Source of the DNA: Pseudomonadota bacterium
Lineage (GTDB): Bacteria; Desulfobacterota; Binatia; Binatales; Binataceae
DNA length: 64,000 bases
Direction: 5' to 3'
Assembly: GCA_021325355.1 (NCBI GenBank)
Contig: JAJPHI010000023.1
Location: 1-64,000 of the forward strand
In this document: positions 36,756 through 58,703 of the stretch, piece by piece
How the letters are laid out: every line of letters begins with the position of its first letter
Position numbering within the stretch: the stretch's first letter is position 1
Translations under genes and position numbers: made by a program
The notes under the pieces: generated by a model
Databases searched by the model: none
Seen by the model: only the letters and a program-made list of their open reading frames with translations
Told to the model about the DNA's origin: nothing

Positions 36756-37424
36756 CTACCGATTGGCCTCCGCGCCGCCGTCGAGGACGCGTGCCTGCAG
36801 AAAGGCCGACAGATCGCGCACGCCGTCGGCGCTCACTTCGTGACCGCAGTCGTACTGGCGAAAATCGACCGTCGCGCCGAGTTCGCGCAATAGCTCGACG
36901 GACTTTCGCGCGCGGGCCGGCTCGAGCATCTCGTCGGCCCGCCCGTGTTGAACCATCACCGGCAGTTTGGCAATCGCTTCCCGATTCTTGGCGCGCTCGA
37001 ACAGATAATCGGGAAATGCCGTCGAGATGCCGACGAGCGCCGCGAATTTGTCTGGCCAGCGCATCGCCAGGTTGTACGCCATCATGCCGCCCTGGCTGAA
37101 ACCGATCAGCACGATTTTTCGCCGATCCACCGGATAGCGGCCGCACGCTTCATTGATGAAATCCCGCAGCTCGTCGATCGCGGCGTCGACCTTTTCCTCG
37201 TCGGGCCGCCCGCCCGGCTTCATTTCGTACCATCCGAAGCCATTGACTGCGCCGATTTCGACTTCGTGCCGTCCCTGGGGACAGATTACGAGAAAGCGTC
37301 CGCCGGCGATGAACGGCGCAATACCATGCAGATCGAGCGCGTTCGATCCCCATCCATGCATCGCCAGGATCGTCGGAAAAGGACCTTCGCCCGCAGGCTC
37401 ATAAAGGGTGTGGACCAGTTTCAT
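36756..37424 (-). CDS. Alpha/beta hydrolase, carboxylesterase/phospholipase type
   Basis: This 222-residue enzyme has the catalytic nucleophile in GFSQGG (S110), Asp164 in HGRADEM and His195 in YDCGHEVS, the triad order of the Abhydrolase_2/carboxylesterase family. Oxyanion residues sit near AMHGWGSNA (about 21-29). It is probably a cytosolic esterase; no signal peptide is present. It is divergent from the membrane glycosyltransferase gene at 37552, with a 127-base shared promoter region. Confidence 0.85.
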   Translation of the reverse strand: MKLVHTLYEPAGEGPFPTILAMHGWGSNALDLHGIAPFIAGGRFLVICPQGRHEVEIGAVNGFGWYEMKPGGRPDEEKVDAAIDELRDFINEACGRYPVDRRKIVLIGFSQGGMMAYNLAMRWPDKFAALVGISTAFPDYLFERAKNREAIAKLPVMVQHGRADEMLEPARARKSVELLRELGATVDFRQYDCGHEVSADGVRDLSAFLQARVLDGGAEANR

Positions 37425-37551: not shown

Positions 37552-40530
37552 ATGATCGCGGGAATGGTAACTGAGGTTTCGAGTCGGCACCGCTCGGCCG
37601 CCTGCCTTCTCCCGGCACTGTTTCTGTTCGGGGCGACCGCCGCCTTTGCCGACGAAGCGATCCCGACCTCCTCGACTGGTGATTGGGCGGCCGGAGTTTT
37701 CGCCGGTCTTGCGCTGAGCGCACTGGTCGCCTACGCGCTTTATCTCGCGGTGCGTCAGCTTATCGCTGCGCGCGATCGCGGCTTCTACTACGCGATTCTG
37801 TGTCTCGCCGTACTCTGGATCGTCAAGGCAATCGCGGTTGTCTATTGCCCCGGCTTCAAGGTTGACGTCGGAACCTACGAGGCCTGGGCGCTCGATATCG
37901 CCCGCAATGGTCCGGCGGCGATGTATCGTCCCGGCTCCTTCCTCGATTATCCGCCCGCCTATCTTTACCCGTTGTGGGCGGCAGGCGCGTTCGCCCGATG
38001 GGTTCAGCCGGCCGATTCGACGCTCCGTGTGATTACCGAAACGCCCGCACTCGCCGCAGATTTCGCCCTCGCGGTCCTCATCTTCGCCGTCGTTCGTCGC
38101 CGCGCGAGCCTCGCGATGGCCTCAGTCGCGACGGCGTTCTTTGCGCTCAACCCGACGCTGCTCTTTGACACTGTGGCGTGGGGGCAGGCCGATTCTGCGC
38201 TGGCCCTCGTGATGTTTCTCGGCGTCGCGATGATGCTCGAGGACGAAGTCGAGCTCAGTTGGGCACTCGCCGCGCTCGCTCTACTGATCAAACCACAGGC
38301 CATCATGTTGATGCCGGTCCTCGGGGTCTGGACCCTCCTCAAGAGCGGACTCTCGGTCTGGATAAGATCCGCCCTGGCGTTCCTCGCGGTTGCCGTCATT
38401 ACGGTCGCGCCGTTCCAGATAAACCATGACTGGAACTGGCTTCCGCAGCTTTATATGACGACGGCGCAGTATTATCACGAGACCTCGGTCAACGCCTTCA
38501 ACTTCATGGCGCTGATCGGCGGGCTGCGCCAGAACGACGGCGGTACGCTCTTTGGCGTCAGCTATTTTGCTCTGGGGATGGCGCTCCTCGCGCCATTGTA
38601 TGCGCTGGTGACGTGGGCGCTCTGGCGCAACGCTTCGCAGCGCAATCTCTGGATGGTTTCCTTCATCGCGCTCTTCGGCTTTTTCATGCTCGCTCCCCGG
38701 ATGCACGAGCGATACCTCTATGCGGCGCTGGTCTTCGCTATTCCCCTGACCATTTCGGAAACCGCGATGCTTGGCGTGTTCGCCCTGGTTACGGCAACCG
38801 GATTGGTGAACCTCGCCTACGTCCTTCACACACTCAATACCGTCGTATTTCTCGATCCGCGGGACGGTCTCGCAATGCTCTGTGCCGGAATTAACTGCCT
38901 CGCGCTCACGCTCGCGATCGTGTATGGGATGGCGCCCGCGCGGGTGGATAGTCCGGATTTTGCCGCGGCGCCCAACGCTTTCAGCGCCCTGTTTGCCGGA
39001 TGGGGCGACAGCATGGTCCGCGCCGTCCCGCCAGTCGATACCTACCTGCAGTTGCCGTGGCTTCGGCGCGATACCGTGGTGCTCGCACTCCTGGTGCTGG
39101 TCAGCGGGGTATTGCGTTTCTGGCACATCGGCCATCCGCCCGAAATTGTCTTTGACGAAGTGCACTTTGTTGGTCAGGCCCGCCATTATCTTCACAACGA
39201 ACCCTTCCTCGATCCGCATCCGCCGATTGCCAAGCTGCTAATCGCCGCCGGCATCCTCCTGCACGGCGATACGTCGGCGAGCTGGCGGCTGGCCAACGCG
39301 ACGCTCGGCACTCTGATGGTCGCGATAACCTATCTTCTCGGGCGCCGTCTTTTCCGCTCGCGTCTCGCCGCTTTCTTCGCTGCCGCCCTCGTGGCGCTCG
39401 ACGGCTACTTCATCGTCGATTCGCGCATCGGCTGCATCGACATCGTCTATCTGACCTTTGCCGCTGCCGCCTACCTGTTGCTGTTTCGCTTTCTCCAGAC
39501 GCCGAGCCTGCTCGGCCGGCGGCGCGTGCTTCTGCCCCTGGCCGTCGCCCTCGGTCTGTGTCTGGGATCAAAGCTTTACGTTCCGGCAATTACCTTTCTC
39601 CTGGTCGCGTCGTTTGCGTTCTATGCGATGCTGCAGCGGCCGCTTCCAGAAATTGCATCACGTCGTCAGAGCGGCAGTGCCGATCTAAATCGCATGCGAC
39701 CGGCGTTCGGCGCCCTGCTGATGACGAGCGCTATCGCCGCTATGGTGTACATTCTTTCCTTTACTCCGCATTATCTACTCGGCTGGTGGGGTGGAATCGC
39801 CGATCTCTTTCACTACTACAAAGATGTCATCTGGTATGAAAAAAGCGTCGCATCCGCCACCCATCCGTACGCTTCGCCATGGTGGAGCTGGCCGCTGATG
39901 CTGCGCCCGGTGGCCTATTGGCAGAATTTCCCTCCCCAGGGCGCCATCGTCGCCACTATCTGGGGAGCCGGTAATCCTCTTACCTGGTGGGCCGTAGTGC
40001 CGGCGATGGCAATTACCGCAGTGCGCGCGCTCGAGCGTCCCAGCCTGACCCGCGTCTTCCTGGTTATCGGCTTTATCGCCTACTATGTAATCTGGATTCC
40101 AATCGGACGCGTACTATTTCTCTATCATTATATGCCGTCAGTCTATATCGGTTATCTGGCGCTCGGCGGCCTGCTTGCCGACTTCTGGCAGGGTGAGGCT
40201 GAACTATGGGAGATGCTGGCGGTGCTCGGCGCGGTGATGCCGGTCCCGTTGCTGGGAATTAATCACATTGTGTTTCAATATTATCCCGACGCAACGGGGC
40301 CGATAACGTACCTTGGCTTTGCTGTCGCCGCGGTGATTCTGACGGCTTGCCTTATCGCCGCCTATTACGGACCGCGCGCCGCCGGCCGTGTGGTGACAGT
40401 GGTTTTCAGCGCTACCGCGGTCGCCCTGTTCATTTACTTTCTGCCGGTGTGGTTGGGGACTCCGATTTCGCGAGTCGGCTATTACGCGCGGATGTGGCTG
40501 CAGGGACCCGGACTGAGAAATTGGATATGA
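37552..40530 (+). CDS. Double GT-C glycosyltransferase fusion (GT87-like + PMT-like)
   Basis: This 992-residue protein consists of two multipass GT-C halves. The first (residues 1 to about 520) has a signal/first helix, the loop KVDVGTYEAWALDIARNGP (about 103-121) with a D and the DYPPAYLYP motif, typical of GT87-like and mannosyltransferase proteins, and about ten helices. The second (about 530 to the end) begins FDEVHFVGQARHYL with the Asp-Glu of dolichyl-phosphate-mannose protein mannosyltransferases and the segment DPHPPIAKLLIAAG, then about ten helices. Both halves should use polyprenyl-phosphate sugar donors at the periplasmic face. The start at 37552 follows AGGAAGGG; upstream in-frame codons are excluded because they lie over the divergent promoter. 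It overlaps the next gene at ATGA. Confidence 0.8.
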   Translation: MIAGMVTEVSSRHRSAACLLPALFLFGATAAFADEAIPTSSTGDWAAGVFAGLALSALVAYALYLAVRQLIAARDRGFYYAILCLAVLWIVKAIAVVYCPGFKVDVGTYEAWALDIARNGPAAMYRPGSFLDYPPAYLYPLWAAGAFARWVQPADSTLRVITETPALAADFALAVLIFAVVRRRASLAMASVATAFFALNPTLLFDTVAWGQADSALALVMFLGVAMMLEDEVELSWALAALALLIKPQAIMLMPVLGVWTLLKSGLSVWIRSALAFLAVAVITVAPFQINHDWNWLPQLYMTTAQYYHETSVNAFNFMALIGGLRQNDGGTLFGVSYFALGMALLAPLYALVTWALWRNASQRNLWMVSFIALFGFFMLAPRMHERYLYAALVFAIPLTISETAMLGVFALVTATGLVNLAYVLHTLNTVVFLDPRDGLAMLCAGINCLALTLAIVYGMAPARVDSPDFAAAPNAFSALFAGWGDSMVRAVPPVDTYLQLPWLRRDTVVLALLVLVSGVLRFWHIGHPPEIVFDEVHFVGQARHYLHNEPFLDPHPPIAKLLIAAGILLHGDTSASWRLANATLGTLMVAITYLLGRRLFRSRLAAFFAAALVALDGYFIVDSRIGCIDIVYLTFAAAAYLLLFRFLQTPSLLGRRRVLLPLAVALGLCLGSKLYVPAITFLLVASFAFYAMLQRPLPEIASRRQSGSADLNRMRPAFGALLMTSAIAAMVYILSFTPHYLLGWWGGIADLFHYYKDVIWYEKSVASATHPYASPWWSWPLMLRPVAYWQNFPPQGAIVATIWGAGNPLTWWAVVPAMAITAVRALERPSLTRVFLVIGFIAYYVIWIPIGRVLFLYHYMPSVYIGYLALGGLLADFWQGEAELWEMLAVLGAVMPVPLLGINHIVFQYYPDATGPITYLGFAVAAVILTACLIAAYYGPRAAGRVVTVVFSATAVALFIYFLPVWLGTPISRVGYYARMWLQGPGLRNWI

Positions 40531-41288
40531 CCGCTGTCGTTCGTCCAGGGTTCTGGCTGCTGCTGGTTGCTCTGATGGCTGTGCCGACGCTCGATGCGCG
40601 CGCCGCCGCGGCGCCGAAGAATCTGTTGAACAACGGTTCCTTTCGCGTCGGCTCAGGAAACTCAGTCGATGGCTGGCGACAGGACGCCTGGATCCAGGAC
40701 CCCGGGTCCACCGACTATATATGGCATCCGCCGGAGCCCGGTAAGCCGGGCGAGCTTGAAGTGCTGAGCCATCGTGATAACGATGCGCGCTGGTCGCAGT
40801 TGCTGAGCCTCGGACCGGGTTGGTACCACATCAGTGTTGAGTCGCGCGCCATCGGCGCGCAGCCTTTTACTACCGGGGCGAATATCAGTCTTCTCGAAGA
40901 TGGTATCACCTCACGTGATCTGCGCGGCACAACCGATTGGCAGCGTATCGGGTTCTACCTCAGAATTGGATCGCAGGGGGCGGATGTCGAGGTTGCCCTC
41001 CGCTTGGGCGGTTTTGGTCGGCTGACGCGCGGCGATGCGCGTTTTCGCGAGGCGCGGGTGGTCAAAGTCGCGGGGCCGCAACCCGGCGAACCCGCATATG
41101 ATCTGGTGGCGATCCGCAAGGCGTCAGCGACCGGGCCAATCGGCTCGCCGTGGACGTTGGTCGCTACCCTGCTGTTCTTATTGCTGCTCGCCGCGGTGGG
41201 ATGGCGCATGATAGCCGAACCGCCTGCGGCGGTCGAAGCCAAAGTCGAGCAGCGTGCGTCGAGAAAGCGCAAAGCCGGTGCACGCTGA
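40527..41288 (+). CDS. Signal-peptide and C-terminal-TM protein with lectin-like ectodomain
   Basis: This 253-residue protein has a signal peptide (about 1-27, ...TLDARAAAA), an ectodomain of about 170 residues opening NLLNNGSFRVGSGNSVDGW, and one C-terminal membrane helix (LVATLLFLLLLAAVGWRMIA, about 210-229) with a basic cytosolic tail. The N-terminal pattern (nonGxF...W...) and WYHISVESRA with beta-strand alternation resemble carbohydrate-binding CBM-like folds, but I could not assign a family. It lies between two glycosyltransferase genes, coupled by ATGA to the first and overlapping the second by 11 to 35 bases, so it probably works with them at the membrane. Confidence 0.6.
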   Translation: MTAVVRPGFWLLLVALMAVPTLDARAAAAPKNLLNNGSFRVGSGNSVDGWRQDAWIQDPGSTDYIWHPPEPGKPGELEVLSHRDNDARWSQLLSLGPGWYHISVESRAIGAQPFTTGANISLLEDGITSRDLRGTTDWQRIGFYLRIGSQGADVEVALRLGGFGRLTRGDARFREARVVKVAGPQPGEPAYDLVAIRKASATGPIGSPWTLVATLLFLLLLAAVGWRMIAEPPAAVEAKVEQRASRKRKAGAR

Positions 41289-43269
41289 GCCGGCGCGATC
41301 GCCTGAGCGTCTATATTTCGCCGGATTGTGCAGCCGCACCGAGGCTTACCTTTTCAGTCTCGCCTTTATTACTTTCGCATTCTTCTACCAGGGCGCCGAT
41401 CAAAGTACCGCCGCGCGTTTTGATCTGATGCGATCTTTGGTCGAGCGTCGGACTCTGTGGATCGATGGCTACTGCGGCTATAACACCGCGGATATTATTT
41501 CGCTATACGGCCACTACTACTCAGTAAAGGCACCCGGCGGATCTTTTACCGGATTGATCCAATGGATTTTTTTCAGCCTTATCCTGTGGCCACTGAAGGT
41601 CGGTCACGAGGCTCTCTACTGGGCGCTGACAACCTGGTTGACGATTATTTTTTCGACCAGTCTTCTGGTCGCGTTTGCGGCCGTCCTGATGTACCGACTG
41701 GTGATATTGCTGACGGCCGATCGGGCACGAGCGATCATCTGCGCAGTTGTGCTGCCATTTGGGACGATTATGTTTCCCTATGCGACGGAGATGACTGGCG
41801 AACCGATCGCGGCAGCGGCCTGCCTTCTGGCATTCTATCTGCTCGTAAGCGAACGCACGCTTCATGATGCGGGTCGCGCGATGGTCGCCGGCGCCGCAGC
41901 CGGCTGGGCCGTGTTGTGCGACTTTCCAACCGTTCTGATCGCGGTTGCTCTGGCTGCGTATGCTTTGTGGCGGTTGGGCCCGACGCTCAGACTGGTCGCG
42001 TTTGCGGGCGGTGCGGGGGCCATTGCGCTTTTGCTCTTCGCATACAATTTGCGAGCCTTTGGAAGTCCATTTTTTCTGAGTTATGAAGCCTACAAGCTGG
42101 CGGGAAACAGTCAGTTTCCCGAGCAGGCCGTGGGCTTTGTCGGCTTGACCTATCCGCGACCCGCGATTCTTTACAAAATACTGCTCGATCCTCAGCGCGG
42201 ACTGTTTTACTGCAACCCGGTGTTAATTCTCAGTCTCTTCGGCGTCGTTGGGATGGCGAAGCGTCGAAAGCTCCGAGCGGAGTTTTTGATTGTAGTCTCT
42301 GCCGCAATTTCGATGATCCTTTTTAATTCCGCGTTTGGTGCTTCTATTGTGTCATGGGGCGGCGGCACCGCGACCGGTCCGCGTCAAATCGTCGCCGCGA
42401 TTCCATTTCTGGTCCTGCCGCTGGCGTTTCTGCCCCGCGGGGCCAAATGGTGGTTGCTGGCGCTCGGCTTTCTGTCGGCCTTCCTGATGCTGATGGCGAC
42501 CGCGGTCGAACCGCACTTTCCGTATGAGTACGGCAATCCGTTGCGCGACTTTATCTGGCCGGCCTACCTGCGCGGCGATCTCGCCTACAACAGCGACGCC
42601 TATTTCGGCGGACCGCCCATTGTCGATGAATCGACCGCTTTCAACCTCGGTAAACTCGCGCGTCTGCCCGGGGCGATCGCCTTGCTGCCGCTCGCGGCGT
42701 TATGGTTGTGGGGCGCCGCAAAACTGATGGGCGACGATGGTTTCAAAGCTGTCACGAGCACCCATCGTGCCGCGGTCTATTGTGCGATCGGCGCGATGTT
42801 CCTGCCGCCGCTGCTCGGTCCGTCGCTCGGCCGATTACGAGCGCCGTCGAGTCACGGTTTGATGGCGCGTTACTATCGCGGGCTCGAACCGAACGGCTTT
42901 CCACCGCATATCGAGCGTGTCGATCGCGAACTTGATTTCGGCAGCGTGGCCGAGCTTGGTGCCTTGCCTGCGCCGTCGCGAATTGTATGGAGCGGAACTC
43001 TGCTTGCCCCGATCAGCGGGCGGTATCGCTTTGCAATTAATGTTGATGACAGCGGATGGCTGAACGTCGACGGCCGTGCGGTGATCCGCGACCCCGGTGA
43101 GGTGACGCAAGGCATCGGCGAAGGCACGGTCGTGCTGACCGCGGGGCCGCATCGTGTCGAAGCCGGCGAGCGTAATCTCGCCGGCGACGCCGCGATGCGG
43201 CTTCTGTGGCAGCCTCCGGGCGCCGCCGAGTTGCAGGTCATACCTTCGACCGCGCTGCTGCCGCATTGA
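41254..43269 (+). CDS. Multipass membrane protein with C-terminal PA14 domain
   Basis: This 671-residue protein has 10-11 hydrophobic helices in residues 25-520, with loops containing RFDLMRSLVERRTLWIDGYC and GAPGGSFTGL-like polar segments resembling GT-C glycosyltransferases. The final 135 residues are a PA14 domain: GLMARYYRGLEPNGFP, VWSGTLLAPISGRYRFAI, VDDSGWLNVDGRAVI and LTAGPHRVEAGERN. PA14 binds carbohydrate and would sit in the periplasm. The start GTG 41254 overlaps the upstream gene by 35 bases; GTG 41278 (11-base overlap) is an alternative. The stop lies inside a long hairpin. Confidence 0.7.
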   Translation: MRRESAKPVHAEPARSPERLYFAGLCSRTEAYLFSLAFITFAFFYQGADQSTAARFDLMRSLVERRTLWIDGYCGYNTADIISLYGHYYSVKAPGGSFTGLIQWIFFSLILWPLKVGHEALYWALTTWLTIIFSTSLLVAFAAVLMYRLVILLTADRARAIICAVVLPFGTIMFPYATEMTGEPIAAAACLLAFYLLVSERTLHDAGRAMVAGAAAGWAVLCDFPTVLIAVALAAYALWRLGPTLRLVAFAGGAGAIALLLFAYNLRAFGSPFFLSYEAYKLAGNSQFPEQAVGFVGLTYPRPAILYKILLDPQRGLFYCNPVLILSLFGVVGMAKRRKLRAEFLIVVSAAISMILFNSAFGASIVSWGGGTATGPRQIVAAIPFLVLPLAFLPRGAKWWLLALGFLSAFLMLMATAVEPHFPYEYGNPLRDFIWPAYLRGDLAYNSDAYFGGPPIVDESTAFNLGKLARLPGAIALLPLAALWLWGAAKLMGDDGFKAVTSTHRAAVYCAIGAMFLPPLLGPSLGRLRAPSSHGLMARYYRGLEPNGFPPHIERVDRELDFGSVAELGALPAPSRIVWSGTLLAPISGRYRFAINVDDSGWLNVDGRAVIRDPGEVTQGIGEGTVVLTAGPHRVEAGERNLAGDAAMRLLWQPPGAAELQVIPSTALLPH

Positions 43270-43330: not shown

Positions 43331-43849
43331 CTACTTCAGCACATTCCCGTGCGTCGGTTCCGGCCGATGCTCCCGCGTGGCCTCGATCTGGATCTCATTC
43401 AACAGGCGCGCTTCCTGCCGCCCGCGCGAAACACAGTGCACGCTCGACAGCGGCCGCAAGGGCACATGCAACGGTGCCGTAAACGTCGCTGCAACGCTCA
43501 CCGTGCTTTGCTCGCGCTCGATGGGCTTGATGGTGAAGTCATAAACCGCCGATGAGTCCGGGTCCGGCTCCTCGTTGACTTTGCCGGCGATCCCTCGCAG
43601 TGCTCCGCAATCGGCGTCCTGCAGGGTGAACGGGACGGGGGCCTCCGCCTCGAGTGTGCCGTCGTTCGGGTTGGCGGTGACGATATGAAATTGGTTGTTC
43701 GCGACCACGGTCTGCACCGCGTCCCACGCTAGATCGTAGGGCAGGGCGAGCGTTACGGTGGTTCGGTTTGCTGCCGGCGGGTTCTGCTGGGGCGCATAAA
43801 CGCATCCAGCGACGACGGCGATCAGAACAGGCGCAATGCGGGATTTCAT
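43331..43849 (-). CDS. Hypothetical lipoprotein
   Basis: This 172-residue protein has a lipobox at its N-terminus (IAPVLIAVVAGC, Cys16) and a soluble domain with alternating beta patterns. A helical segment YDLAWDAVQTVVANNQFHIV occurs early in it, a pattern seen in secreted DUF-type lipoproteins that probably fold as alpha+beta. The function is unknown. It converges with the PA14 gene and is followed on its 3' side by the shared hairpin. Confidence 0.75.
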   Translation of the reverse strand: MKSRIAPVLIAVVAGCVYAPQQNPPAANRTTVTLALPYDLAWDAVQTVVANNQFHIVTANPNDGTLEAEAPVPFTLQDADCGALRGIAGKVNEEPDPDSSAVYDFTIKPIEREQSTVSVAATFTAPLHVPLRPLSSVHCVSRGRQEARLLNEIQIEATREHRPEPTHGNVLK

Positions 43850-56275: not shown

Positions 56276-57340
56276 TTAAAGAAAGCTGTGCAAACCGCGC
56301 CGCTTCAGTTCGTCGAGCACCTGGCCGACCTCCTGCGATCGCGATTTGTGCGCGATGAGCAGCGCGTCTTCGGTGTCGATCGCAACGAGGTCTTCGACGC
56401 CCAGCAGCACCATCAGGCGTTTGCCGCCGCGGGCGAGCACGCCGCTGCTGTGCAGCGCGACCACTTGGCCGGTGACGACGCTGTGCGACTCCCCGCGCAT
56501 CGCCGCCCATAGGCCTTCCCAACTGCCGACGTCATTCCAGGTGAAACGCGCCCGCACTCCGAGCAGGCGTCGGCTCTTTTCCGCGACCACGCGATCGAAC
56601 GAATCGAAGACGAGCCGATGATAGACCCGGCCGAGCTCCGCCGGCTTCATCGCGCCGAAGCGATCCATCATCGCCGCGAGCGCCGGTGCGTGCTGGTCGA
56701 GCTCGCGGCGCAGCGTGGTGAGACTCATCACAAAAATGCCGGCGTTCCACAGGTACCTGCCCGATCGCACCATCCGCCGTGCCCGCGCGGCATCGGGTTT
56801 TTCGACGAACCGCGCGACCTGGAAACCCGCACCGATCGCTCTACCGATCTGCTGGTAGCCGTATCCGGTCTCCGGCCGCGTCGGCGTCACGCCGATGACG
56901 ACAATTGCGTGCTCGCGCCGGGCCAGTTCGCTCGCCTCGCCGATCGTGCGGCTGAAGGCTTCGGCTTCGGGCACGAAATGGTCGGCGGGCATGATCGCGA
57001 CGATCACTTCCGGACCGACGCGATGCCCGATAATCGCCGTGCCATAGGCGATTGCCACGGCGGTCCCGCGGCCTTCCGGCTCAACGATAAGGTTCGCGGC
57101 GGGCAGCAGTCCTTTCAGCGCGCGTTTGAAGGCGCGCGCCTGATCCGCCGCCACCAGCACGAAAATCCGTTCAGATGGAATGCGCGGCTGCACCCGCGCG
57201 ATCGTGTCTTCGAGCAGCGACCGCTCGCCGTCAAAACGAAACAGCGGCTTCGGTCGATGGCTGCGGGCCTCGGGCCAGAAGCGCGTGCCGCGACCCCCCG
57301 CGATGATCAACGCCGCCAGCGGCTGGGTAGGCCGTTTCAC
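56276..57340 (-). CDS. manC: Mannose-1-phosphate guanylyltransferase
   Basis: This 354-residue nucleotidyltransferase has the N-terminal GGRGTRFWPEARSHRPKP (about 13-30) and FVEKPDAARARRMVRSGRYL with WNAGIFVM, typical of GDP-mannose pyrophosphorylase. It lacks the C-terminal phosphomannose isomerase domain of bifunctional enzymes. It converts mannose-1-phosphate and GTP to GDP-mannose. It follows the phosphomannomutase gene by 4 bases on the minus strand. Confidence 0.9.
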   Translation of the reverse strand: MKRPTQPLAALIIAGGRGTRFWPEARSHRPKPLFRFDGERSLLEDTIARVQPRIPSERIFVLVAADQARAFKRALKGLLPAANLIVEPEGRGTAVAIAYGTAIIGHRVGPEVIVAIMPADHFVPEAEAFSRTIGEASELARREHAIVVIGVTPTRPETGYGYQQIGRAIGAGFQVARFVEKPDAARARRMVRSGRYLWNAGIFVMSLTTLRRELDQHAPALAAMMDRFGAMKPAELGRVYHRLVFDSFDRVVAEKSRRLLGVRARFTWNDVGSWEGLWAAMRGESHSVVTGQVVALHSSGVLARGGKRLMVLLGVEDLVAIDTEDALLIAHKSRSQEVGQVLDELKRRGLHSFL

Positions 57341-57344
57341 CGCT

Positions 57345-58703
57345 TCAAAGGCCCTTGCCGAGTTCGTTCAGCTTGTCCTCGAACAGTCGGCGAATCTCGC
57401 CCAGCCGCTCGGCGCTTTCCGCCTCGAAGCGCATCACCAGCGCCGGCTGAGTATTCGACGCCCGCACCAGACCCCATCCGCCGGGCAGGTTCACCCGCAC
57501 GCCATCGACGTCGATCGTCTCGTAGTGCGCGCGGAAGTACTCCGCCGCTCGCCGCACCAGTTCGAACTTCCGGTCGTCGGGGCAATCCAGCCGAATCTCC
57601 GGCGTGAACTTCGTCCGCGGCAGGTCGCTCAGGATCGCGCCCAACCCCCGATTTTCGCGCCCGAGCAGCTCCAGCAGGCGAAACGAGGCGTAGATGGCGT
57701 CGTCGAAACCGAAGTAGCGGTCATTGAAGAACATGTGCCCGCTCATCTCGCCCGCCAACGCCGCGTGTTCCTCCTTGAGCTTGGCCTTCATCAGGGAGTG
57801 GCCGGTCTTCCACATGATCGGTTTGCCGCCGTGCCGCCGGATATCCTCGTACATGCGGTTCGAACACTTGACCTCGCCGATTATTGCCGCGCCCGGGCGC
57901 TCTTTCAGAATCGATCGCGAAAACGCGACCATCAGTTCGTCGCCCCACACAATCTGGCCGTTTTCGTCAACCGCGCCGATGCGATCGGCGTCGCCGTCGT
58001 AAGCGATTCCCACATCCGCGTGATGCTGTCTGACCGCGGCCTGCAGATCGCGCATGTTCTCTTCGACAGTCGGGTCGGGATGATGATGCGGGAAGCGGCC
58101 ATCCATCTCGATATAAAGCTCGATCGTCTCGACGCCCATCGCACGCATCAGCGGCGCCGCGATCGCCCCGCCGGTGCCGTTGCCGCCGTCAACCGCGACG
58201 CGCATCCCCGGCTTTAACGAAATGTTTTTCTTGATGTACTCGTAGTAGTCAGGGATCACCGGTCGCGCGGTCAGGCTCCCCTTGATGCCGAGCGTCCGGA
58301 ACGCCCGTTCCTCGATAATGCGCCGCACGCGCTGAATCTGCTCGCCGTAAATGGTCGACGGTCCCACTCCCAGCTTGAAACCGTTGTACTCCGCCGCGTT
58401 GTGGCTGCCAGTGATCATCGCGCCGCCGTCCATGCCCCAGTGGAGCACCGAAAAATACAGCAGCGGAGTCGGCACGACGCCGACATCGACGACGTTGATT
58501 CCGGCAGGCAGCATGCCCTCGATCAGCAGATCGCGGAGCGCATCGGAGGTGAGTCGGCAGTCCCGGCCCAGCGTGATGGTCTGCTTGCCCGCTTCAATCA
58601 GGATCGTGGCATACGCGCGACCCAAGCTGATGACAAAATCGTCGTCGAAATCGTTCTCGACGACGCCTCGGATATCGTATTCGCGGAAGACCTGGGGATT
58701 CAT
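57345..58703 (-). CDS. algC: Phosphomannomutase/phosphoglucomutase
   Basis: This 452-residue enzyme has the phosphoserine loop MITGSHNAAEYNGFK (S100), the metal site AYDGDADRIG (about 235) and the C-terminal phosphate-binding region GWGLVRASNTQPALVMRFEA. It interconverts the 6- and 1-phosphates of mannose and glucose, feeding manC and possibly glgC. The start is the only ATG. Confidence 0.9.
   Translation of the reverse strand: MNPQVFREYDIRGVVENDFDDDFVISLGRAYATILIEAGKQTITLGRDCRLTSDALRDLLIEGMLPAGINVVDVGVVPTPLLYFSVLHWGMDGGAMITGSHNAAEYNGFKLGVGPSTIYGEQIQRVRRIIEERAFRTLGIKGSLTARPVIPDYYEYIKKNISLKPGMRVAVDGGNGTGGAIAAPLMRAMGVETIELYIEMDGRFPHHHPDPTVEENMRDLQAAVRQHHADVGIAYDGDADRIGAVDENGQIVWGDELMVAFSRSILKERPGAAIIGEVKCSNRMYEDIRRHGGKPIMWKTGHSLMKAKLKEEHAALAGEMSGHMFFNDRYFGFDDAIYASFRLLELLGRENRGLGAILSDLPRTKFTPEIRLDCPDDRKFELVRRAAEYFRAHYETIDVDGVRVNLPGGWGLVRASNTQPALVMRFEAESAERLGEIRRLFEDKLNELGKGL

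Follow-up and report, generated by a model that had tools for sequence, protein, structure and literature searches.

We describe here a two-gene core from the Candidatus Binataceae (Binatota), consisting of a tandem membrane protein of the GT-C type and a membrane-anchored partner whose ectodomain is predicted to resemble carbohydrate-binding modules (CBM). The pair is obligate in this family and is joined in part of it by a third, optional GT-C-like protein carrying a PA14 domain. The three open reading frames (ORF1 to ORF3) lie at 37552-43269 of the stretch of DNA analysed here (the window), which spans positions 1-64000 of contig 32 in a 95% complete genome of 3.36 Mb. The initial annotation of the window had described them as an overlapping three-gene cassette for a glycan transfer complex. 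The system is not local to Binataceae, which corrects the earlier view, and it is better named a double transferase that has a CBM-like protein as its obligate partner, with a PA14 transferase as an optional addition.

Results

All three genes are on the forward strand. ORF1 (37552..40530) encodes a tandem GT-C protein of 992 amino acids from an ATG start, within a frame that opens upstream at a GTG at 37408. ORF2 (40527..41288) encodes 253 amino acids with a signal peptide, a CBM-like jelly roll and one transmembrane helix. ORF3 (41278..43269), a multipass GT-C-like protein with a C-terminal PA14 domain, is 663 amino acids long when read from its GTG; a second GTG at 41254 would give 671. The frames are open and overlap end to start, the ATG of ORF2 and the TGA of ORF1 sharing 4 nucleotides, and the overlapping arrangement that was initially annotated is thus verified. 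Given the presence of ORF2 throughout the family and its adjacency to ORF1, this layout is far beyond chance. A simple hydrophobicity scan finds 26 hydrophobic segments in ORF1, 13 and one weak one in ORF3, and in ORF2 an N-terminal signal-like segment and a single C-terminal transmembrane segment (208-226).

ORF1 is found in 40 and ORF2 in 39 of the 41 Binataceae genomes, the source genome included, and ORF2 is present in all 34 genomes of good quality. A search at the level of the order returned the same 41 genomes as that of the family, and a class-level search covered 148. At each of the 37 main relative loci (L055-L091) a separate ORF2, encoded in the same direction, comes after the half of ORF1 that resembles protein O-mannosyltransferases (PMT), with a gap between the hidden Markov model matches of 12-268 nucleotides. 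In the remaining relatives ORF1 is cut at a contig end (G009, G038), or ORF1 has no match and an ORF2-ORF3 fusion is present (G025). Thus, ORF1 and ORF2 form a core, obligate pair in Binataceae. ORF3 is optional: a substantial copy (at least 550 bits; a contig end truncates the G036 copy, and a frame change breaks that of G004) is present in 24 of the 41 genomes, and in the other 17 it is absent, a fragment (G009, a PA14 piece at a contig end) or a remote match (G031). A fixed trio is ruled out by these 17 genomes, and the conservation in order that the initial annotation had proposed as a check holds for the pair, not for all three genes. All 24 substantial copies are tied to an ORF2-like domain, standing after ORF2 in 20 cases (window included) and fused behind the domain in 4 (L039-L042). 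No substitute gene was seen at the ORF3 position in L055 or L058, the two loci examined for one. Among 143 genomes of the class, drawn evenly, the matches to ORF3 outside Binataceae do not exceed 125 bits and are mostly partial.

ORF1 begins with a signal-like segment, a 15-residue stub and a transmembrane helix (residues 15-67), followed by two GT-C halves. The C-terminal half (residues about 508-992), which is PMT/GT39-like and contains the stretches VFDEVHF and HPPIAK, matches Pfam PMT over residues 514-984 (E 5e-26, 92 bits vs a cut-off of 22.7) as well as PMT_4TMC (E 1e-18, 68 bits vs 32.4). By sequence comparison with the PDB, its VFDEVHF and HPP stretches align with the solved PMTs 9i5k and 6p25, and residues D535, E536 and H556-P558 are conserved in at least 93% of 51 aligned rows. 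Solved PMTs have such an acidic DE motif, located in their first outer loop, and an HPP motif. A Pfam scan found no MIR domain in ORF1. The N-terminal half (residues about 81-460) is ALG3/ALG6/GT87-like, in the manner of PimE. In the window protein it stays below the Pfam cut-offs (GT87 18.1 vs 25, ALG3 21.7 vs 23.6, and a weak Alg6 match), and 11 of 13 aligned members match GT87 at E 1 or better. D105, DYPP (132-135) and RMHERY (383-388) are invariant in the 13-row alignment. With the profile of this half a PDB search gave no match at E 5, and fold comparison was used in its place.

The folds were read from L216, a natural fused homologue of 1178 amino acids to which the window ORF1 is 37% identical (predicted model with pLDDT 85 and pTM 0.69). 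Residues 26-183 of L216 resemble a hyaluronan-binding module (Z 18.5), residues about 230-628 resemble ALG6 (Z 26.2), ALG3 (26.0), GPI mannosyltransferase I (24.3) and PimE (19.9), and residues 684-1178 resemble Pmt1 (Z 30.7, 430 aligned). The C half of L216 reaches Z about 30 for protein O-mannosyltransferases, compared with 23.7 for ArnT, 17.2 for AftA and 15-17 for Emb. Since the parts of L216 match ALG-type and PMT-type folds, a protein of the ORF1 kind reads as an ALG-type GT-C enzyme with a PMT-type enzyme behind it. Judged from the modelled homologue, ORF1 is most likely a membrane glycosyltransferase with two active sites. In five loci of genus g2 (L078, L080, L083, L084, L086) the PMT half matches its profile twice with an overlap, once over positions 1 to about 200 and once from about 153-163 to 469, perhaps a sign that a loop was inserted or duplicated.

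The predicted model of ORF2 (35 rows, mean pLDDT 91) consists of a beta-sandwich, with the jelly roll at residues about 28-187, and a C-terminal transmembrane helix (208-230) followed by a basic tail. Many of the best fold matches of residues 28-187 in the PDB are carbohydrate-binding modules. Among them are the hyaluronan-binding module 4d0q (Z 17.8, root mean square deviation 2.7, 144 aligned), 3oeb, a CBM16 with mannopentaose (Z 14.3), and, at about 14, CBM4 and CBM61. Z values of 13-15 are also reached by phage tailspikes and by domains of insecticidal proteins that have the same fold. Across the 35 rows Trp50 and Trp138 never vary, and Trp55 is nearly invariant. The model supports the lectin- or CBM-like ectodomain that had been annotated, at the level of the fold, and a function in sugar binding would fit it. 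Six of seven scanned Bacillota proteins with an ORF2-like domain match Pfam CBM_4_9 or CBM_4_9_1 weakly, under the cut-off. A search of PHROGs gave one weak match of unknown function, and a single weak match to a C-type lectin (PDB by sequence, E 0.02) was judged to be due to chance.

The third protein contains a PA14 domain (residues about 527-663), as initially annotated; Pfam PA14 matches residues 534-658 above its cut-off (E 1e-8, 35.5 bits vs 24). The Asp-Asp pair D590 D591, presumably corresponding to the calcium site of PA14 lectins, is kept in at least 90% of 18 rows. Acidic and NTAD stretches are conserved in the GT-C-like body (20 rows). This part weakly resembles the putative glycosyltransferases of the LA_3751/LA_3752 family (NF047440; 36.8 bits, far under the cut-off of 200), and unlike that family ORF3 bears PA14.

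Fusions of these modules recur. We used profiles for the ORF2 domain (P2), the two halves of ORF1 (P1N and P1C), the GT-C part of ORF3 (P3GT) and PA14. Single P2-P1N proteins are encoded at nine Binataceae loci, one of them cut by a contig end, and P2-P3GT-PA14 proteins at four. Family f13 has 13 complete loci with a P2-P1N-P1C protein, all with a second, separate P2 within about 70 nucleotides downstream; family f17 has four complete loci of this type, without a P2 right behind, and two cut by contig ends. A lone P1C before a P2 was seen once (L052). Four groups of fusions occupy distinct branches of a tree built from 110 P2 domains: P2-ORF3 (96/82), P2-P1N of Binataceae (100/99), those of f13 (100/97), and those of f17 together with the ones from outside Binatia (95/87). 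On this tree the nine labels require nine changes, the minimum possible being eight. A physical complex is likely because P2 is recurrently fused to each GT-C partner, which is stronger support than an operon alone, and a local operon without deeper links was rejected on account of these fusions. The transfer complex of the initial annotation thus gains in likelihood, its physical association being what we infer. The fusion joint is probably sensible in topology, as the basic tail of ORF2, probably cytoplasmic, runs into the N terminus of the GT-C part. Read by eye, most ORF1 proteins of Binataceae open with a signal-like segment and then a short stub and a transmembrane helix, where the fused relatives have signal, P2 and transmembrane helix. 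This suggests that an N-terminal ectodomain may have been lost from a fused ancestor, although the P2 tree does not settle the direction. One protein (L140:4568-7153) has the order P2-P1N-P2, seen once, with two ectodomains around one GT-C half.

Within the class, P2 occurs in 60 of 148 genomes (family f1 39, f13 14, f17 6, f10 1). In three f13 loci (L139, L142, L155) its neighbour is a multi-transmembrane frame that matches PMT weakly (22-25 bits); in the f10 locus (L141) it stands at the end of a protein with ten transmembrane segments. For the view outside Binatia, the best 80 among 506 relatives were used, and these gave 36 loci. Nine encode P2-P1N-P1C, one P2-P1C (L243) and 20 P1N-P1C without a P2 match; in five the called protein that has P1N lacks P1C, and in one nothing was called (L237). 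As judged from sequence, ORF1-type double GT-C proteins, some of them P2-fused, extend to two further families of Binatia and to Bacillota. Named Paenibacillus strains are among the carriers (L239, L244, L251). In the family of Paenibacillus contaminans (L239), 17 of 104 genomes have a P2 of at least 173 bits, 16 of them in frames of 1271-1343 amino acids, whose P1N and P1C content was confirmed for L239 only; the next-best P2 match in these genomes has 62 bits, which is in the range of generic CBM-like domains. Four Bacillota double GT-C proteins (L224, L236, L240, L244) show an F5/8 type C-like match between the catalytic halves, just over the Pfam cut-off in L244 and below it in the others, perhaps a second ectodomain. 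One P2-P1N-P1C fusion (L218, CAMBZJ010000029.1) comes from a record titled Klebsiella pneumoniae, probably a mislabelled metagenome-assembled genome of the window's own class (family f13).

The initial annotation had asked for a polyprenyl-phosphate sugar synthase in the genome, and candidates resembling DPM synthase or undecaprenyl-phosphate-sugar synthases are present among 23 GT2 matches. The nearest solved structure of the GT2 at C32:109376-110176 is DPM synthase (E 7e-17), and other candidates resemble undecaprenyl-phosphate-sugar synthases (undecaprenyl-phosphate Ara4FN transferase, GtrB-like). None of six scanned GT2 proteins reaches any NCBIfam cut-off. About 13 kb from the cassette the reverse strand encodes a ManC-like mannose-1-phosphate guanylyltransferase (56276..57340) and, upstream of it, a ManB/PgmG-like phosphomannomutase/phosphoglucomutase (57345..58703), both over the Pfam and under the NCBIfam cut-offs; it is possible that they supply the GDP-mannose donor for the cassette. 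An exopolysaccharide-type gene set at 814-21660 (SLBB/Poly_export, Wzz-like, Wzx-like flippase, sulfotransferase-like, GT2s, asparagine synthase, an exopolysaccharide sugar transferase and a Polysacc_synt_2/PseB-like dehydratase) lies about 16 kb away. Near the cassette are genes that by eye look like yebC-ruvCAB. Between these and ORF3 is a small gene (43331-43849), lipoprotein-like by eye and without a Pfam or NCBIfam family, that many relatives keep next to the cassette. One tRNA-Met came out of scans of the window for Rfam families and tRNAs.

Discussion

Taken jointly, these data lead us to a tentative reading, to which we give somewhat less than even confidence. The PMT-like C half of ORF1 would start a glycan on an exported Ser/Thr-rich protein by O-mannosylation, and the ALG3/PimE-like N half would add a further sugar at the outer face of the inner membrane. 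The sugar would most likely be mannose, taken from polyprenyl-phosphate-mannose. ORF2 would be the membrane-anchored subunit that keeps the glycosylated acceptor, or the product, near the active sites, by analogy with the MIR domain of eukaryotic PMTs. ORF3 would be an optional third GT-C-like protein in the same complex, adding a further sugar and bringing its own PA14 domain. A similar division of labour is reported for actinobacteria, in which a PMT starts protein O-mannosylation and the GT87 enzyme PimE extends it, both using a polyprenyl-phosphate-mannose donor (PMC12757957). Eukaryotic MIR domains are reported to interact with O-mannosyl peptides (PMC7759382); bacterial PMTs are described without them, and how they compensate is called open (PMC12331936). 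In the C-terminal domain of EmbC, single Trp changes in its two binding sites are reported to inhibit chain extension (PMC3044687). A wider proposal is that such a single polypeptide is an initiating and elongating protein O-glycan synthase, that its CBM-like ectodomain shifts in evolution between fused and separate states, acts as bacterial counterpart of MIR and confers processivity, and that a PA14-bearing third transferase can join the complex; in this full form we consider it doubtful.

Several observations weigh against the protein O-mannosylation reading. ORF1 scores 67 bits on the NCBIfam protein O-mannosyltransferase equivalog NF058602, whose cut-off is 800, and the acceptor need therefore not be a protein. 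ORF2 has no Pfam or NCBIfam match at E 0.1 and matches no Pfam CBM family at E 1 either; a shared jelly roll alone does not show sugar binding. The DPM-synthase-like GT2 has a relative of at least 63% identity in only 35 of the 41 genomes. The six genomes without a close one all hold ORF1-ORF2, and there the best match is 47-50% in G034 and G035 and less in G017, G020, G023 and G037. The ORF2-like domain is not needed everywhere, because at 20 of the 36 loci from outside Binatia the double GT-C protein shows none, in L224 and L253 of these with about 200 unmatched residues in front. Nor is the domain exclusive to GT-C proteins: eight P2 genes have no multi-transmembrane frame beside them (L043 and L044 in Binataceae; L137, L138, L143, L144, L145 and L154 in f17), by which P2 as a part of GT-C systems only is ruled out. 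These lone loci count against such exclusivity, not against the partnership of P2 with ORF1. The P2 of L043 and L044 lie in short frames of 204 and 218 amino acids and may be secreted binding proteins.

The strongest rival concerns the acceptor. The complex may decorate a periplasmic cell-surface polysaccharide, lipoglycan or glycolipid instead of a protein, as EmbC or the GT136 enzyme ORF12 do, with the CBM-like and PA14 domains binding the polymer. This explanation is kept alive because the exopolysaccharide-type genes share the window (0.8-21.7 kb), and it fits the low score on the PMT equivalog as well as published CBM-bearing GT-C enzymes, which are reported to act on polymers (EmbC, PMC3044687; GT136, PMC11127046). 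However, the C half of L216 is nearer in fold to protein O-mannosyltransferases than to ArnT, AftA or Emb, and the cassette sits beside yebC-ruvCAB-like genes and at a distance from the polysaccharide genes. We consider a polymer acceptor rather unlikely, though a rival to be taken seriously. Less probable to us is the same architecture with a polyprenyl-phosphate sugar other than mannose, such as glucose, galactose or a pentose, as donor. The GT-C fold does not reveal donor choice, and several GT2 proteins are closer to undecaprenyl-phosphate Ara4FN transferase or GtrB-like synthases than to DPM synthase. Mannose is favoured by one GT2 nearest DPM synthase and by the ManB/ManC-like genes. It is also favoured by the closest proteins of solved structure: those related to the C half are mannosyltransferases, and so are two of the top three for the N half (ALG6 was solved with Dol-P-Glc).

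It seems equally improbable that the ORF2 and PA14 domains bind no sugar and serve as scaffolds or bind proteins instead. Jelly rolls are versatile, ORF2 lacks a Pfam CBM match and eight P2 genes stand without a GT-C neighbour, but the prevalence of carbohydrate-binding modules among the best fold matches, the conserved tryptophans and the weak CBM_4_9 or CBM_4_9_1 matches of the Bacillota proteins argue for a lectin-like role. Finally, the genes might be co-expressed members of one pathway that form no physical complex. The frequent absence of ORF3 would agree with this, yet two observations make it very unlikely: P2 is recurrently fused with each of its GT-C partners, in different parts of the P2 tree, and ORF1 and ORF2 are adjacent at all 37 loci.

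Several known systems are close to the cassette. The GT39 protein O-mannosyltransferases (yeast Pmt1/2/4 and actinobacterial PMT) share with the C half the Pfam match, the VFDEVHF/HPP stretches and, through the homologue, the fold. Unlike them, ORF1 has its PMT half behind a second GT-C enzyme, its CBM-like ectodomain is a separate subunit or N-terminally fused, and the Pfam scan shows no MIR. The GT87/ALG3/ALG6-type enzymes (PimE, ALG3, GPI mannosyltransferase I) are similar to the N half in the fold of the homologue (Z 20-26) and by weak Pfam matches, but the window N half is below the Pfam cut-off and part of a double enzyme. The actinobacterial PMT and PimE, with the same proposed division of labour, are two separate proteins (PMC12757957), in contrast to one polypeptide with dedicated CBM-like partners here. 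The arabinosyltransferases EmbC/EmbB and the CBM-bearing GT136 enzymes likewise combine a polyprenyl-phosphate-donor GT-C enzyme with a lectin-like module, which is reported to bind the acceptor in EmbC (PMC3044687, PMC11127046). Their CBM is in the same chain (C-terminal in EmbC), whereas here it is either N-terminal or a single-transmembrane protein of its own, and it accompanies a double, PMT-like catalytic part. A literature search of titles and the beginnings of abstracts, with subscription papers partly outside its reach, returned no description of such double GT-C/CBM proteins.

In one family a CBM-like ectodomain is the obligate neighbour of a PMT-like protein, and elsewhere it is fused to proteins of that type; such an ectodomain is a testable candidate, and because the link spans uncultured Binatota and named Paenibacillus strains, it can be addressed at the bench. 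A natural fusion of presumed chain-starting and chain-extending enzymes would be a one-gene tool for glycoengineering.

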